A model generated the notes under the pieces. That model was not told the origin of the DNA. It was given only the letters and a program-made list of their open reading frames with translations, and ran no database searches. Of a stretch of DNA of 31,399 bases, positions 3,223 through 25,040 are shown piece by piece. The first letter of the stretch is position 1. Every line of letters begins with the position of its first letter. Where the stretch lies: IMG/VR virus record IMGVR_UViG_3300036945_000383, positions 1-31,399 of that record. One strand, written 5' to 3'. A program made the position numbers and the translations under genes. Origin of the DNA: a virus.

Positions 3223-4914
3223 ATGGCAAATATTCCAGTTATCCCCGGCGTTAGTGTTGCAACCAAAGGCATCCTAAACAAACCTCTCAAAGACATTATA
3301 TGTGCGCTGCTTTTTGGCGGACTTAATAACATGCTGAAAGGTCCTCTGATTTGTGTTAACTTGGACATTGATAAGTTGCTACAGGAAAATGTCGACGGTA
3401 TTCCTTCCTTGGCTGATTTAAAAAACGAGCTAGCTGACCTAAAAAAAGAACTTAAAGCAGCCGAAGAAGCACTTGGTATCAAAGAAGCACTCGGAAGAGT
3501 AAATGCCGCTATTGCTGAAGTTCAAAGTTTATTAGCACTCGACGGTATGTGTGCTATTCCAATGAAAGCACCTGCTATACCTGATGTACTTGGGCAAGTG
3601 ATTGATGCAGAGTTTGCTGAAATGAATGCAATTCTAAATGACCTTGGCAGACTGGCAAAGCCTTCTGTGTGCTTAGATGGCACAGGTGGCTTAAGCCTTG
3701 GAGGCGGATATAATCCTGAAAGTATACTTGCTAGCATTGCAGCCCACGGTGGAAAAATGGCCGACATTCCAGGTGACAAACTAAACGCATTGGTTGCCAG
3801 ATTGAAGAATGTCAAGACTGCACTTAAAAAATCAGTCAATCGCCAGCTGTTCCCAGACTTTAGACACAAGCACAATTTAACAACAGGCAAGCCATATAAA
3901 GTATCTGATGCTACTGTTATTACACTAGCGCCACCGCCTCCGGCAGCTAACCAATGGAACGGTCCATATCCTCCAGCCGATGTACCAAACTTAAAAGACG
4001 CATCAGCCACTGCACAAACTCTTGTTGCAAGTGTAAACAAGTCTGCAAGTTATCCTGCTGATGTAAATGGGATTCGCAGTGTAAACATTTGGCCAGGGCT
4101 ATTAGGCCCAGAGTTGTATGGCATGGCAGTGGAAGCATTAACTCCACAGGATCCGCTGTTTGTACAACAAGACCCAGTCTATGACTATTGCGGAAAATTA
4201 GTCGGGTACGACTCAACTGTTATTACCGGCAATCAAGATGCGCTAGGTGGTGACCCAGCCCTAGGTGCTGACCTAAGCCCGCCAACTACTAACTTTAATA
4301 TGCTATGGATTGATGATCGCCAATGTTGGGCAGTTGATGGTAAACTAAGCGAGCAAGTAGTAAACGGCCGCAAAGACACGTACTTGGATGCAAATCCAAC
4401 TATTGAAATGCATCGTGGCTATACTCACATCTTTGGTGTCCCTTCTTACGATCTATTAGGTGACACATTGGCCCCAGAATTTTACATTTATAAAGTCAAA
4501 GCTGACCTAACTCCAGATACCACTGCACCATTTAATCTAGGACTAAGTCGCTTAGAAACATACGAACTGCTAGAAGATGCAAATGGTTTAGCGGGCAGAG
4601 AAGGTGAGCAACGTCGCGAAGATTTCCCGACAGGTACTACCCTTTACTTCGAAGCAGAAGCAAAAGTATATTCCGGAACTGTTCCGCCCGTGTATCCAAG
4701 CGAGCTGGTCTGGTGGTACAACACAGAAACATGTGTTGCACAACGATGGGTACCCGATGCTGATAGAATTAGTGGATCGTGGGTTGAAGTATCCAATCAA
4801 GACCGTGCTGAAAAATGGGTCGGATCAAGCAACAATGTAAACGATCCGCACGTTAATTACCTTTGTTACAGTAACCAAGATGGCTCAGTGTACGGCCTGC
4901 TCAAATTTATATAA
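3223..4914 (+). CDS. Large putative virion structural protein
   Basis: 563 aa, not matched to a named family. Residues about 1-50 are hydrophobic and glycine-rich (GVSVATKGILNKPLKDIICALLFGGL), residues about 62-105 form a likely coiled coil (LADLKNELADLKKELKAAEE), then a Pro/Ala-rich linker (TLAPPPPAANQ, near 235), and a C-terminal domain rich in aromatic residues and short strands (ELVWWYNTETCVAQRW). That architecture, no enzymatic motif, and a place between an M15 peptidase and other virion-type genes suggest a baseplate, tail or fibre component. It follows the peptidase by ten bases and ends two bases before the next start. Assignment to virion is inference. Confidence 0.7.
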   Translation: MANIPVIPGVSVATKGILNKPLKDIICALLFGGLNNMLKGPLICVNLDIDKLLQENVDGIPSLADLKNELADLKKELKAAEEALGIKEALGRVNAAIAEVQSLLALDGMCAIPMKAPAIPDVLGQVIDAEFAEMNAILNDLGRLAKPSVCLDGTGGLSLGGGYNPESILASIAAHGGKMADIPGDKLNALVARLKNVKTALKKSVNRQLFPDFRHKHNLTTGKPYKVSDATVITLAPPPPAANQWNGPYPPADVPNLKDASATAQTLVASVNKSASYPADVNGIRSVNIWPGLLGPELYGMAVEALTPQDPLFVQQDPVYDYCGKLVGYDSTVITGNQDALGGDPALGADLSPPTTNFNMLWIDDRQCWAVDGKLSEQVVNGRKDTYLDANPTIEMHRGYTHIFGVPSYDLLGDTLAPEFYIYKVKADLTPDTTAPFNLGLSRLETYELLEDANGLAGREGEQRREDFPTGTTLYFEAEAKVYSGTVPPVYPSELVWWYNTETCVAQRWVPDADRISGSWVEVSNQDRAEKWVGSSNNVNDPHVNYLCYSNQDGSVYGLLKFI

Positions 4915-4915
4915 C

Positions 4916-5527
4916 ATGACTTTTATCAATGATGCTGATGTCTGGAGACAATGTCCGCATGAATATCTTTGGATTTACGATAAACTCATAGTGGCTCGTA
5001 AACAAGGCTTTTTAGCTGGCCCAGCAGGTATACCTGTGCCTAAACCAGCACAGTACATTGTTCGCCCCATAACAAATATACGCATGATGAGTCGAGGCGC
5101 CAGCAAGCAGTGGTTAACACCAGATGATACTGACCTAGTACCAGACGGATACTTCTGGTCTGAATGCTTTGAAGGCCGTCATACCAGTGTAGATTTTCAC
5201 TACGGCATTCAACACTTGGCAGTTGAGGGATTCAGAGATGATCCTGACAGATTAGATAGATTTTCAAAATGGCAGAAAATTGACGACCAGTACAAGTTCC
5301 CCGAGATGCTGGGAGAACTATGGCGTCTGACACCTTGGATCAATATAGAATGCATAGATGGTAAAATCATTGAAGTACATTTGCGATGGAATGATGACTT
5401 TTGCAATCACGACAGCGAAGTTATATACCCAGTCTGGCAAGACAATCCAATGCCGCAGCCGCTGGGCACTACTTGGTACAGTAGTCCTGCTGGCGATAGA
5501 CTTGGATTTTGGTGCAAGAACAAATAG
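4916..5527 (+). CDS. Conserved phage protein of unknown function, possibly ATP-grasp-like
   Basis: 203 aa from the ATG one base after the previous stop; a longer reading from 4880 would overlap the upstream gene and is less likely. The order of segments YIVRPITNIRMMSRGA, FWSECFEGRHTSVDF and INIECIDGKIIEVHLRWND resembles the nucleotide- and metal-binding strands of ATP-grasp ligases (E at the end of a strand, then GKIIEVxxR). Five cysteines are scattered without a clear metal motif. The similarity is weak and judged by eye. It ends in TAG and is separated from smpB by a promoter, so it closes the virion-type operon. Confidence 0.65.
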   Translation: MTFINDADVWRQCPHEYLWIYDKLIVARKQGFLAGPAGIPVPKPAQYIVRPITNIRMMSRGASKQWLTPDDTDLVPDGYFWSECFEGRHTSVDFHYGIQHLAVEGFRDDPDRLDRFSKWQKIDDQYKFPEMLGELWRLTPWINIECIDGKIIEVHLRWNDDFCNHDSEVIYPVWQDNPMPQPLGTTWYSSPAGDRLGFWCKNK

Positions 5528-5540
5528 TCAAGATACATCA

Positions 5541-5569
5541 TTGACAATTGTTGCCAGGTAATGTACAAT
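5541..5569 (+). promoter_or_regulatory. Sigma-70 promoter for smpB
   Basis: TTGACA at 5541-5546, 17-bp spacer, TACAAT at 5564-5569. The -10 box ends only five bases before the smpB ATG, so the expected transcription start coincides with the start codon (leaderless mRNA). Confidence 0.75.
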
Positions 5570-5574
5570 AACGC

Positions 5575-6000
5575 ATGTTCGAAAATAAAAAAGCCCGTTA
5601 CGATTATGAAATCCTGGAAGACTACGAGTGTGGCATCGTGCTGGAATCGTGGGAAGTCAAGGCCATTGCCAACAAGACTTGCTCTATTGTAGGCTCACAT
5701 TGTAAAGTATTCAACAGCGATGTGTTCCTTGTTGGTGCCAGTGTCGGCTCATCAGACAATGAGCAACAGCGTACACGAAAGCTATTGCTGCATCGTAAAG
5801 AAATCAATCGGCTGATTGGCAAAACGCAGGAAAAAGGTTTAACACTGGTTCCGCTGAAAATGTATCACAAGAAGGGCAAGTTCAAGTTATTGATTGGCCT
5901 TGCTCGTGGTAAGAAAGAATACGACAAGCGGGAAGTTGACAAGAAGCGTGATATTGAAAATGAAACACGCAGGATTGTAAAAAGTCAAAAATTAGCTTGA
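5575..6000 (+). CDS. smpB: SmpB, tmRNA-binding protein
   Basis: 141 aa; E. coli SmpB has 160. SmpB binds the tRNA-like domain of tmRNA, delivers it to stalled ribosomes and mimics the missing codon-anticodon pair. Family landmarks are all visible: NKKARYDYEILEDYECGIVL near the N-terminus, LESWEVKAIANKTCSI, RTRKLLLHRKEINRL in the middle, GLTLVPLKMY, KGKFKLLIGLARGKKEYDKR, and the basic C-terminal tail KKRDIENETRRIVK that enters the mRNA channel. The start is fixed because the conserved core begins at residue 4. No ribosome-binding site fits between the -10 box and the ATG, so it looks leaderless. The tmRNA gene follows at once, and its promoter overlaps the smpB stop codon. Confidence 0.96.
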   Translation: MFENKKARYDYEILEDYECGIVLESWEVKAIANKTCSIVGSHCKVFNSDVFLVGASVGSSDNEQQRTRKLLLHRKEINRLIGKTQEKGLTLVPLKMYHKKGKFKLLIGLARGKKEYDKREVDKKRDIENETRRIVKSQKLA

Positions 6001-6025
6001 CAAGCAGGAAAAACAAGTATATAAT
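5997..6025 (+). promoter_or_regulatory. Consensus sigma-70 promoter for the tmRNA gene
   Basis: TTGACA at 5997-6002, 17-bp spacer, TATAAT at 6020-6025, a full match to the sigma-70 consensus. The -35 box includes the smpB stop codon. The overlapping AATAAATA at 6023-6030 also fits the T4 late-promoter pattern NATAAATA, so the gene could be read both early and late. Expected start is near 6032. Confidence 0.9.
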
Positions 6026-6096
6026 AAATACTTGAACAGCGTAAAGTAGGAACTGAAAAATATTCAAGAACCCGGTTCAAATCCGGGCAGGTCCAC

Positions 6097-6171
6097 CATA
6101 GATACATTGGGGAATAATATAGTCCGTAAGGATGAATGCTGTCCTAGAGACCGTCCAACAATGTATCTATG
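6097..6171 (+). other. Intervening segment hairpin of the permuted tmRNA
   Basis: Perfect 13-bp inverted repeat CATAGATACATTG (6097-6109) / CAATGTATCTATG (6159-6171). Its left arm uses the last two bases of the CCA end and its right arm stops two bases before the 5' end of the coding piece. The helix would bring both processing sites side by side in the precursor before excision. Confidence 0.9.
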
Positions 6172-6282
6172 ATGGGCCTGAACTGGTTATCGATTGGGTA
6201 TTAAGTATGTTATCTATCGCTCGGCAATGTAGAAGCCGTTAGGATTGGGGTAACCTGGTCGCAGAAGCAAAACAAAGTAAAC

Positions 6283-6315
6283 GCAAACGACTCACAGTTC
6301 GCATTAGCTGCCTAA
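6283..6315 (+). other. tmRNA tag reading frame, peptide ANDSQFALAA
   Basis: The frame GCA AAC GAC TCA CAG TTC GCA TTA GCT GCC TAA follows AGTAAAC, as expected upstream of the resume codon. It encodes ANDSQFALAA, with the ...ALAA end recognised by ClpXP-type proteases. The resume codon is GCA (Ala), as in most tmRNAs. Confidence 0.95.
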
Positions 6316-6356
6316 ACTCAGCTTAGGGTAAGACATACCTCGTAACAGAAACTCAA

Positions 6357-6384
6357 GAAAGCACCTTCGGGTGCTTTCATTTTA
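6357..6384 (+). terminator. Rho-independent terminator of the tmRNA gene
   Basis: 9-bp stem GAAAGCACC / GGTGCTTTC closed by a TTCG tetraloop, followed by ATTTTATA. Confidence 0.93.
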
Positions 6385-6682: not shown

Positions 6683-6895
6683 ATGGCATACTTTTGGAGA
6701 AAAGCAAGAGGCCTTGCAGCCGATGTCGAACGCCATCGTGCAAAAGAAGCTGAACTAGATGCTAAGATAGCAGAGCTAGAGGACAAGCGAGATCCACTAA
6801 GCATTGCTTCATTGCGAGTATATCGTAGATTTCGTGCCCAACTGCTACAAAGCAAGGCTGAAATTGTAAACAAAATTGGCAAGAAAAATGTTTAA
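6683..6895 (+). CDS. Small hypothetical coiled-coil protein
   Basis: 70 aa from the ATG after AAGGAGAG; a longer in-frame reading from 6503 only overlaps the upstream gene. It is highly charged and helical (RHRAKEAELDAKIAELEDKR), consistent with a short coiled coil, and ends in a basic tail IGKKNV. The next gene starts eight bases before its stop. No function can be assigned. Confidence 0.75.
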   Translation: MAYFWRKARGLAADVERHRAKEAELDAKIAELEDKRDPLSIASLRVYRRFRAQLLQSKAEIVNKIGKKNV

Positions 6896-7796
6896 AGACA
6901 AGTTAAAAGAATACGTAGAATCATCTAACCTAGTTAACATGAAAGAAGCTGGGCAAGGTATCTACGTACTCAAATATAAGAAGCGTGTGTTCTATGACAA
7001 CCTATGGAACGAGTACATTGCCGAATGTCGTGGAAGTATTGTGGATGCTGATTTTAACCTAGTGAGCTATCCATTCACAAAGATCTACAACTATGGTATC
7101 GAAAAGGAAGCACCTGTGTTTTCCGAACTTGATACTATCGTAACTGCTTTCCGTAAGGTAAACGGTTTTATGGTAGCAATGACTTGGTACAATGGCGACA
7201 TCTTAGTGTCTACTACCGGGTCAACCGACAGCCCATACGTTGCAATGGCAAAAGAAATGATGTTAATTCATCAATCTTGGGCAGACTGGCAGTTGGCATT
7301 TAACCGCTCAGACATGGACGGAATGACATTTATGTTTGAATGTGTACATCCTGATGACCCACATATTGTACCTGAAAAGCCAGGTATGTATATCTTGGGT
7401 TATCGTGAAAACACTTGGCGGTCAGAAGTGGGTCATGAACCTGCTGTATTAGAGCAACTGGGCGAAACGTTCAAGTGCTTTGTTCCTGAATGCCAGCACT
7501 TGACTGTTATGGCGCTAAAGAACTTGGTCAAGACAGTCAAGCACGAAGGCTTTGTGTTCTATGACGAAGAAGGCGTAGGAGCAAAGATCAAGAGTCCTTA
7601 CTACTTGACTTCAAAGTGGGTAGCACGTAACCCTCGTACAGACAAGCTGGTTGACCTGAACCGGGACATCAAGCAAAACCTAGACGAAGAGTACTATCCA
7701 CTGGTTGACGCTATTCGTGCTAACATTGCAGAATACACTGCCTTGGACGAGCAAGCTCGACTGGCATGGGTGCGTAACTATATGGAGACTGTATGA
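6888..7796 (+). CDS. T4 Rnl1-like RNA ligase
   Basis: 302 aa from ATG 6888 (a TTG 12 bases earlier is also in frame). RNA ligase 1 seals 3'-OH and 5'-phosphate RNA ends through an adenylated lysine. Signatures in order: ECRGSIVD near 46-53, matching T4 Rnl1 ECRGIMF; SYPFTKIYNYG; motif I KVNG with the candidate nucleophile K90 (T4 has KEDG); motif III MTFMFECV; motif IV HEGFVFY; motif V AKIKSPYYL. T4 Rnl1 is 374 aa, so the C-terminal specificity domain is shorter here. With the kinase at 19079 it makes a tRNA-repair pair like T4 Pnk/Rnl1, which counters anticodon nucleases. The stop overlaps the next start (ATGA). Confidence 0.9.
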   Translation: MFKDKLKEYVESSNLVNMKEAGQGIYVLKYKKRVFYDNLWNEYIAECRGSIVDADFNLVSYPFTKIYNYGIEKEAPVFSELDTIVTAFRKVNGFMVAMTWYNGDILVSTTGSTDSPYVAMAKEMMLIHQSWADWQLAFNRSDMDGMTFMFECVHPDDPHIVPEKPGMYILGYRENTWRSEVGHEPAVLEQLGETFKCFVPECQHLTVMALKNLVKTVKHEGFVFYDEEGVGAKIKSPYYLTSKWVARNPRTDKLVDLNRDIKQNLDEEYYPLVDAIRANIAEYTALDEQARLAWVRNYMETV

Positions 7797-18500: not shown

Positions 18501-19079
18501 ATGCACCAAGATCTAGACACAAAACTTTGCACCGCATACCCAAAACTATTTGTAAACCGTAACGCACCAATGCAAGAAACTTGTATGTGCTGGGGATTCT
18601 CGCATGGTGACGGCTGGTACAATATCATTAATCAATTGTGCGCAAATATCCAAGGTCATATCGATTGGACAGAACGCAAGCGTGAAGCCATTATCAAGTA
18701 CAATGCAATAGCTGAGCAATGCAAGGCGGGCAACTTCGAACTGTTTGAAGAAGACATGAAAAGTATAACCGACTTGGAATACAAGGAAAAGCGTAAACAA
18801 GAAATCATCAACGCTGATTTGAAAATTGTCACAGACGCATGTCCGCAAGTTACTGTAGATCAAGTCAAAGAGAAGTTTGGTACCTTGCGTTTTTACTACA
18901 GCGGCGGCGATGATTATGTCAGTGGACTGGTCAGTATGGCAGAAAGCATGTCAGCTGTTACCTGCGAAGAATGTGGAAACCCAGGCAAGCAAGTGGGCGG
19001 CGGCTGGATTACTACATTGTGCAAAGAACACGCTGAAGCCCGCGGAATTTATGCTAACGACAAAAAGGATATTGAGTAA
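18501..19079 (+). CDS. Conserved protein with C-terminal zinc-finger-like motif
   Basis: 192 aa from the ATG after AGGAGATATC (a TTG further upstream is in frame but ignores this site). The segment VKEKFGTLRFYYSGGDDYVSGLVSMAES near 124-151 and the following CEECG...GWITTLCKEH form the conserved part, with Cys/His spacing that suits a zinc finger. Two more cysteines (CMCWGF) lie near 28-30. It recurs in phages and proteobacteria as a hypothetical protein; I know of no function. The stop overlaps the kinase start (TAATG). Confidence 0.78.
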   Translation: MHQDLDTKLCTAYPKLFVNRNAPMQETCMCWGFSHGDGWYNIINQLCANIQGHIDWTERKREAIIKYNAIAEQCKAGNFELFEEDMKSITDLEYKEKRKQEIINADLKIVTDACPQVTVDQVKEKFGTLRFYYSGGDDYVSGLVSMAESMSAVTCEECGNPGKQVGGGWITTLCKEHAEARGIYANDKKDIE

Positions 19080-19564
19080 TGCCAGTGTTATATGTTCTAG
19101 TAGGAGTACCTGGTTCAGGCAAGTCTACTTGGATCGGTCATCAAAAATTTAACTGGGATAACACAGTTATTGTAAGCACTGATCGTTATGTGGAACGTTA
19201 TGCCCGATCCATTGGCAAAACCTACAACGAAGTATTCGACGACTACATGTCTACAGCAGTGGACTTGATGGCAACTGAAGCACGTGATGCATTTGCCGCA
19301 AACAAAGATGTTGTATGGGATCAGACCAGCACATCGGTTAAAACACGTGCCAAGAAATTGCGCATGGCCCCTGCCCACTATACTAAAATTGCAGTAGTGT
19401 TTAAAACTCCACCGTCTGCACTGCATGCCAAGATGTTGGACCGTCCGGGCAAGACCATTCCCGAATATGTTATGCGTAGTATGATTGACAATTTTGTTTA
19501 CCCAACCGTCGAAGAAGGGTTTGACAAGATTGTTAATGCAAAGTTACAAGGACTTGAATTGTGA
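19079..19564 (+). CDS. Polynucleotide 5'-kinase-like P-loop protein
   Basis: 161 aa. Walker A is GVPGSGKST (residues 9-17); STDRYVERY matches the T4 Pnk acceptor-site Asp/Arg segment (NRDDYR); DRPGKTIPEYVMRSM matches the T4 lid KRGTKAVPIDVLRSM. It corresponds to the kinase half of T4 polynucleotide kinase and lacks the C-terminal phosphatase domain (T4 Pnk has 301 aa). It should phosphorylate 5'-OH RNA or DNA ends. Together with the Rnl1-like ligase at 6888 this gives end healing and sealing; a 3'-phosphatase step would need another enzyme. The stop overlaps a GTG start downstream (GTGA). Confidence 0.85.
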   Translation: MPVLYVLVGVPGSGKSTWIGHQKFNWDNTVIVSTDRYVERYARSIGKTYNEVFDDYMSTAVDLMATEARDAFAANKDVVWDQTSTSVKTRAKKLRMAPAHYTKIAVVFKTPPSALHAKMLDRPGKTIPEYVMRSMIDNFVYPTVEEGFDKIVNAKLQGLEL

Positions 19565-24004: not shown

Positions 24005-25040
24005 TTTAAGGGTGGTTTAACATCCTGTAGGCGGCTTGCTGTCTACGAAGAATAACTGTGGTGACACAGCCAAAGGAGGTATGCCTACATAACTCCGCTA
24101 GAAATAGTTCATTTAGACAAGCCTGCTTGGTACCGTGAGGTACGCTTCGTTGATAAGACCGGCGGAGATAACAGCAAAGCTGATAGTAGTGGAAAGAACG
24201 TGTGCTCAAGCGCCGCAAGGTAACGCAAGTGCATGGAAAGGAAACAGGTGGTGCTGTCCTTCACTGCAAAACCAATCAGTTAGCTGGTACAAGAAAGGGT
24301 AGTGTATTGGTTCAAAGGGTCGCTCCTAAGAGCTGGTATGCAGTTTGAGTGGTTGGTGGTTGCGTTGTGAAACGCGGACATTGATCGCAAAAGACGACTG
24401 AGTAGCTCGCGAGGCAAAAGGTACGTGGTGTGTTGTATTGTGTAGAGCAAAACTTTATGCAGCAACTGAGTCAGCACATCGCAGTAGGTTGATATAGCTC
24501 ATTGTAGAGCAATTCCCTGTTAAGGAATAGGCTGTGGCTTCAAAACCACTATCTAACAAAAATGCAAAGACTGACTCGGTCATATGTGAAAAGCATCTAA
24601 TACTTGACACGCAAGTGAATCAAGTCCAACGTAACTCGCAAGGTGAAATTGGTTTATGCAGGAAGTTTCGTAAGGTGTTAGCGCACTTGAATGGCTCGCA
24701 AGGTCAACGGGATAGAAAGCGTAGAATAGCATATGGCGACAAGACTAGTGCCTGTCTTTAAAAACGGCGATGCTGATAGCAGACTATGATACATAGCAAT
24801 ATGGTTGTAGTGGAAATCAAGAGAAGGTATGCTCGCAAGGCGTACTATAATGCTTGAGGTGCTATTGGGAGAGATGTATTCTCAGTCCTCCACTATTCTA
24901 AAGCACATTACGAGTCCATGCCTCTTCCGCAAATAAGGAAGGATAGTGTGTTTCAGAATAGAAAGATACATTAAAGTGTGACTGCGTCATTGGCAACAGT
25001 GAGAGGCCTACTAAAGCTGTAGGACATTAGTGTGTTTTAA
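24005..25040 (+). ncRNA. Very large structured RNA, GOLLD/ROOL-like
   Basis: About 1.04 kb without a credible gene (about 1.2 kb if the tRNA-Ser domain and leader from 23844 are included). It is packed with GNRA-capped hairpins: CTGTG-GTGA-CACAG (24056), GTACC-GTGA-GGTAC (24130), GCGTT-GTGA-AACGC (24362), CAC-GCAA-GTG inside CTTGA/TCAAG (24603), and four copies of a bulged motif CTC-GNRA-GG at 24406, 24635, 24695 and 24832. Longer-range pairs include GTAGGC/GCCTAC (24027/24083), CTCCGC/GCGGAG (24093/24162), ACCAAT/ATTGGT (24271/24306), TAGTGGA/TCCACTA (24808/24889) and CCTAC/GTAGG (25007/25019). Known giant RNAs of phages and prophages next to tRNA genes are GOLLD and ROOL; GOLLD was first seen in lake DNA and can contain a tRNA. 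Family membership is inference; no consensus could be checked here. Confidence 0.75.
24488..24557 (+). tRNA. tRNA-Asn(GTT)-like domain inside the large RNA
   Basis: GTTGATA pairs with TATC-T-AAC with one bulged T; D arm GCTCATTGTAGAGC; anticodon stem-loop ATTCC-CTGTTAA-GGAAT; T-like arm GTGG-CTTCAAAA-CCAC. No CCA. It may be a functional tRNA released from the RNA, or a tRNA-shaped structural domain. Confidence 0.6.

Follow-up and report, generated by a model that had tools for sequence, protein, structure and literature searches.

The window, that is the whole stretch of 31,399 nucleotides analysed, carries at 6034-6315 a circularly permuted (two-piece) gene for tmRNA, the bacterial RNA which rescues stuck ribosomes with SmpB as its protein partner. 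The gene is of the beta-proteobacterial type and its tag is intact; all features described in the window are on the + strand. The permuted, two-piece organization proposed in a preliminary description of this DNA was borne out by covariance-model searches, the window scoring 93.1 bits with RF04321 (cut-off 47, E 5e-17) and 88.4 bits with RF01850 (E 1.4e-25), the latter narrowly over the cut-off of 84, and by a permuted call of ARAGORN. The element order, the acceptor stem, the intervening hairpin and the tag had likewise been read correctly.

The acceptor piece (6034-6098), defined by covariance models, ARAGORN, folding and the alignment of relatives, has a predicted 5' end, and includes the T arm CCCGG-UUCAAAU-CCGGG (6071-6087; T stem 6071-6075/6083-6087), the acceptor 3' strand CAGGUCC (6088-6094), A6095 and an encoded CCA (6096-6098). 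All these elements, from the T arm to the CCA (6071-6098), lie upstream of the 5' acceptor strand GGGCCUG (6174-6180), which starts the coding piece. The two acceptor strands pair 7/7, with the G3-U70 pair present. Chance expectation for the 25-nt T-arm/CCA pattern is 0.00 occurrences. The intervening segment (6099-6173), predicted to be removed, features a 13-bp hairpin (6097-6109/6159-6171; MFE -26.1; z -5.2 against mononucleotide shuffles), the arms of which take in the CA of the CCA; relatives retain this hairpin with an altered sequence. Two helices join the pieces in the five-phage alignment, one formed by 6046-6051 with 6212-6217, the other by 6059-6067 with 6194-6202, where 5 pairs show two-sided changes among relatives. 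The coding piece contains a CGGC/GCCG hairpin (6222-6238), invariant in five phages, an extra 7-bp hairpin GAUUGGG-GUAA-CCUGGUC (6243-6260), located 22 nt 5' of the tag, and the ARAGORN frame ANDSQFALAA-stop (6283-6315). Folding of the whole tmRNA region gave a z of -3.65, a value as low being reached by none of 100 shuffles. A promoter-like site TTGACA-17-TATAAT, matching the sigma70 type at 12/12 positions (5997-6025), overlaps the smpB stop codon, and a terminator-like hairpin of the intrinsic type, with 9 bp and a T-rich tail, follows at 6357-6378.

Directly upstream of the tmRNA gene lies smpB (5575-6000), overlooked in the preliminary description, which encodes an SsrA-binding protein of 141 aa. 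The Pfam profile PF01668 matches residues 2-136 (155 bits, E 1.5e-45), and the best PDB match is the SsrA-binding protein 7ljp (E 3e-33). The C-terminal tail GKKEYDKR fits the GKKxYDKR motif, and is invariant across four phages; the predicted structure model, built from four sequences only, has a pLDDT of 47, too low for interpretation. A promoter-like site TTGACA-17-TACAAT (11/12) is found at 5541-5569, the end of its -10 lying 5 nt upstream of the ATG. The same distance recurs in the related viral contigs L003 (site 12/12) and L118 (8/12); it is 7 nt in L005 (12/12), and no such site was found in L004. From the 5-nt distance, smpB mRNAs are predicted to be leaderless in the window, L003 and L118. 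By sequence, smpB is followed by a permuted tmRNA gene of beta type, and each of the two genes has a strong sigma70-like promoter.

NrdA and NrdB are encoded upstream of the pair, an RNA ligase (6876-7796), rIIA and rIIB downstream, and ARAGORN detected a tRNA gene cluster farther along the window. The gene content of this neighbourhood is that of a lytic T4-like phage, in line with the phage carrier initially assumed. The RNA ligase and a polynucleotide-kinase-like gene (19079-19564) share the window with tmRNA and tRNAs, and possibly serve RNA repair. Perfect matches (12/12) to the sigma70 promoter, each with a 17-nt spacer, occur at six positions of the + strand (5997, 6431, 15601, 15841, 21682 and 21788), and suggest heavy use of the host RNA polymerase. 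A GOLLD RNA (24425-24888; 206.8 bits) sits in the phage tRNA cluster; inside it is a tRNA match (24488-24558; 51.7 bits) missing from the ARAGORN list. A megablast search of sequenced phages with positions 1-25000 revealed no close relative, and matches to tRNA genes only; the tmRNA gave a single match of 45 nt to sequenced phages.

Linkage of smpB to a permuted tmRNA was found in the window and in five further lineages (L003, L004, L005, L118 and L286). Searching viral contigs with the SmpB protein retrieved L002, identical to the window across 8346 bp, and L003, L004 and L005, encoding SmpBs 95%, 86% and 85% identical to that of the window, respectively; in these four contigs the permuted tmRNA is 30 bp to 2.2 kb from smpB. 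L118, found by motif search, encodes a 68% identical SmpB with tmRNA directly downstream, and L286, found by hairpin search, a 67% identical SmpB. In L005 and L118 tmRNA comes immediately after the smpB stop and lacks a separate promoter; the two genes are spaced by other DNA in L003 and L004, where the tmRNA promoter is the same as in the window. ANDSQFALAA, ANDETPYALAA and ANDESYALAA are the tags found in the window and its smpB-linked relatives, apart from L118 and L286, whose tag has 32 residues. Over the acceptor stem, the T stem and the two joining helices of five phages, 94.8% of cells are paired, 15/27 pairs show two-sided changes (4/7 in the acceptor stem), and none of 500 shuffles was as good; the signal was lost once pairing partners were slid. 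SmpB is under purifying selection in the four phages compared (dN/dS 0.05-0.21). An origin of the window pair at a prophage edge was rejected upon testing 119 smpB-bearing viral contigs, the edge cases having standard tmRNAs.

The five window-type proteins cluster as a single clade (100/100) in a phylogeny of 52 SmpBs; the clade sits at the end of a long branch, beside proteobacterial SmpBs and away from those of giant phages, which make up a clade of their own. The 297-kb phage contig L126/L227 combines a permuted tmRNA of beta type with an SmpB falling among those of Burkholderiales, suggesting that this SmpB was captured independently. The tmRNA tree likewise recovers the window clade as one group (100/99) but, with only 8/28 branches well supported, does not show the source bacterium of the clade. 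The L003 tmRNA (4836-5258) groups with that of L118 (100/96), in conflict with the 95% identity of the L003 and window SmpBs; parts thus seem to have moved between phages, tmRNA bodies apparently being swapped behind a conserved promoter. The DNA pattern for bacterial tmRNA matched genome contigs only once, in Stenotrophomonas chelatiphaga, and was replaced by RF01850 searches. The S. chelatiphaga gene (L022, 3468-3810, - strand) is a permuted beta-like tmRNA (RF01850 112.6 bits) with the odd tag ANQVDYHQARIAA, and represents a permuted tmRNA in a gammaproteobacterium.

The extra hairpin, also overlooked in the preliminary description, corresponds to an insertion of about 22 nt relative to the RF04321 consensus. 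The coding piece of the RF01850 consensus is without further hairpins, a typical rather than strictly defining trait from which the window departs, and because of this insertion the window tmRNA is called a beta_tmRNA variant. The GAUUGGG hairpin is absent from the bacterial references and the named phage isolates compared, and no match to the exact 19-nt pattern was found in a sample of 399 Burkholderiales genomes. Scanning viral contigs revealed at least 117 loci, at least 43 of which have a permuted tmRNA overlapping the motif; adding the window clade and L007 and L014, where one hairpin pair is changed on both sides, the family comprises at least 49 viral permuted tmRNAs. L228 (63.7 bits, tag GNTNYSYRMAA), the acceptor stem of which was unparsed, is left out of this count. 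A 7/7 acceptor stem with G3-U70 is found in 36 of the 37 members parsed by a simple acceptor-stem script, the exception (L299) being a misparse; 12 members were unparsed. Eight compact members (L243, L273, L281, L312, L319, L327, L348 and L353) lack an encoded CCA, as bacterial genes do, and genes for a porin, a PstS-like protein and a homing endonuclease lie next to some of them. These features make a host origin possible for a few compact members, and the hairpin may thus not be confined to phages.

The preliminary description held phage tmRNAs reported so far to be all of the one-piece kind. This is contradicted by PMC9004378 (2022), which describes a two-piece tmRNA in phage Melnitz and 53 two-piece tmRNAs called by ARAGORN across publicly available phage genomes, most of them marine or aquatic, and by the permuted tmRNAs found in eight named isolates (Marzo, DLP_6, QDWS359, BUCTxx99, QDWS595, X1, Rb1 and Tunturi_4); tmRNA is already annotated in the record of Marzo, like DLP_6 a Stenotrophomonas phage. 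Melnitz and its marine relatives share with the window a two-piece tmRNA and a lytic myovirus as carrier. According to the same paper, the Melnitz tmRNA groups with those of alphaproteobacteria and has a glutamine riboswitch, whereas that of the window is beta-type, and no riboswitch exceeded the gathering score in the window. No phage smpB is mentioned in the passages of PMC9004378 consulted, and none was found in the whole genomes of the eight isolates, nor in eight viral records with permuted tmRNA identified by pattern (L007, L009-L012, L014-L016), several of which are fragments. Marzo, DLP_6, X1 and QDWS595, phages of Stenotrophomonas, Xanthomonas and Alcaligenes, resemble the window in having a tagged, permuted tmRNA of beta type or near it, but lack smpB anywhere as well as the GAUUGGG hairpin.

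The betaproteobacterial permuted tmRNA (RF01850, within RF04321) shares with the window permuted order, G3-U70, T arm, joining helices and an ALAA-type tag. The window differs in that it is on a phage, has the extra hairpin before the tag and an adjoining smpB; in addition, the span from the discriminator to the 5' strand is 79 nt, vs. 28-46 nt in Burkholderiales references. Giant phages (PMC7162821; Lak phages and phages of 642-735 kb) encode SmpB as the window does, but of a different clade, and a permuted tmRNA was found in none of the three smpB-bearing giant-phage records searched. Both tmRNAs and SmpB are reported among huge phages in PMC7162821, so that the literature leaves room for a phage having both. 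No report of a linked smpB and permuted tmRNA was found in the literature searched, beyond which such a paper may exist; the linked pair, and the extra hairpin in dozens of virus contigs, look new.

The locus quite probably encodes a trans-translation pair supplied by the phage, which would rescue ribosomes during infection. Supporting this are the covariance models, ARAGORN, covariation and the 7/7 acceptor stem with G3-U70 of nearly all phage relatives parsed, together with an intact SmpB under purifying selection, linkage in six lineages including the window, promoters and a terminator; against it, smpB is missing from many phages that retain a permuted tmRNA, and the RF01850 score exceeds its cut-off by little. 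Host RNA polymerase would transcribe smpB and tmRNA, and host tRNA-processing enzymes would cut the latter, RNase P at G6174 and 3' processing at the CCA (6098). Removal of the intervening hairpin would leave two RNAs held to each other by base pairs, of roughly 65 nt (acceptor piece) and roughly 170 nt (coding piece), which host alanyl-tRNA synthetase would charge via G3-U70. Bound to phage SmpB, this two-piece RNA would reach ribosomes that have stalled on broken mRNA; addition there of ANDSQFALAA, a degron ending in ALAA, would lead to degradation of the product and free the ribosome. An own pair may keep ribosomes available as mRNA is cut and host synthesis fails.

Tags vary in the hairpin family, which has at least 21 different ones, including tags of 26-32 aa and the endings LMVA, ALVA, LAANA and AAFA. 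The 32-residue tag ANANVTSGVKMTVAKGFRFGGSKVAATEAAFA, ending in AAFA, is identical in L118 (1300-1770, - strand) and L286 (2097-2567, + strand), and may not be a ClpXP degron; further long tags, AKTAFQYWQAPVGVSAMNDSEFALAA and ANADTFEFGALNFTGNTVGAANEGRFALAA, occur in L338, L308, L339 and L329. It is conceivable, though rather unlikely, that the family is a branch of permuted tmRNAs which evolved in phages and is distinguished by the extra hairpin and fast-changing tags, and that one of its sublineages became an autonomous tmRNA-SmpB pair setting a phage-chosen fate for tagged proteins. The same variety would fit a working pair that serves to substitute a tag chosen by the phage for that of the host, and so to alter what becomes of tagged proteins; this is improbable, as the window tag is an ordinary one, near the Burkholderiales tags ANDEQFAIAA and ANDESYALAA, and tag drift could be neutral.

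A phage tmRNA, SmpB, or both might instead titrate or poison host trans-translation. An RNA consisting of the tRNA-like domain only, similar to that of mycobacteriophage DS6A, a phage relative of tmRNA without tag, is a strong inhibitor of tmRNA, and may act through titration of SmpB (PMC4131195). The window has both a tag, intact and ALAA-ended, and a partner protein; the mRNA-like part is conserved, and the phage brings its own SmpB, conserved through the C-terminal tail, which makes a decoy quite improbable. It is very improbable that the pair is an unselected passenger, either a host ssrA-smpB segment picked up recently or what is left of an attachment site, although ssrA is a common integration site and many smpB-bearing viral contigs look like prophages bounded by host smpB-ssrA, as the pair sits between lytic T4-like genes and not at an end, is kept in divergent phages at the low dN/dS given above and with compensatory RNA changes, has an SmpB on a long phage-only branch, and differs from the prophage-edge cases, whose tmRNA is not permuted.

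Phage tmRNAs are usually read as captured RNAs that depend on the SmpB of the host. The hairpin motif is a simple handle for finding members of the family, and, with tags varying naturally across the family, the acceptance of different tag ends by host ClpXP can readily be tested. The linked pair makes the need of a phage for ribosome rescue testable in E. coli; a selected, linked smpB and tmRNA would mean that some phages come equipped with both rescue partners.
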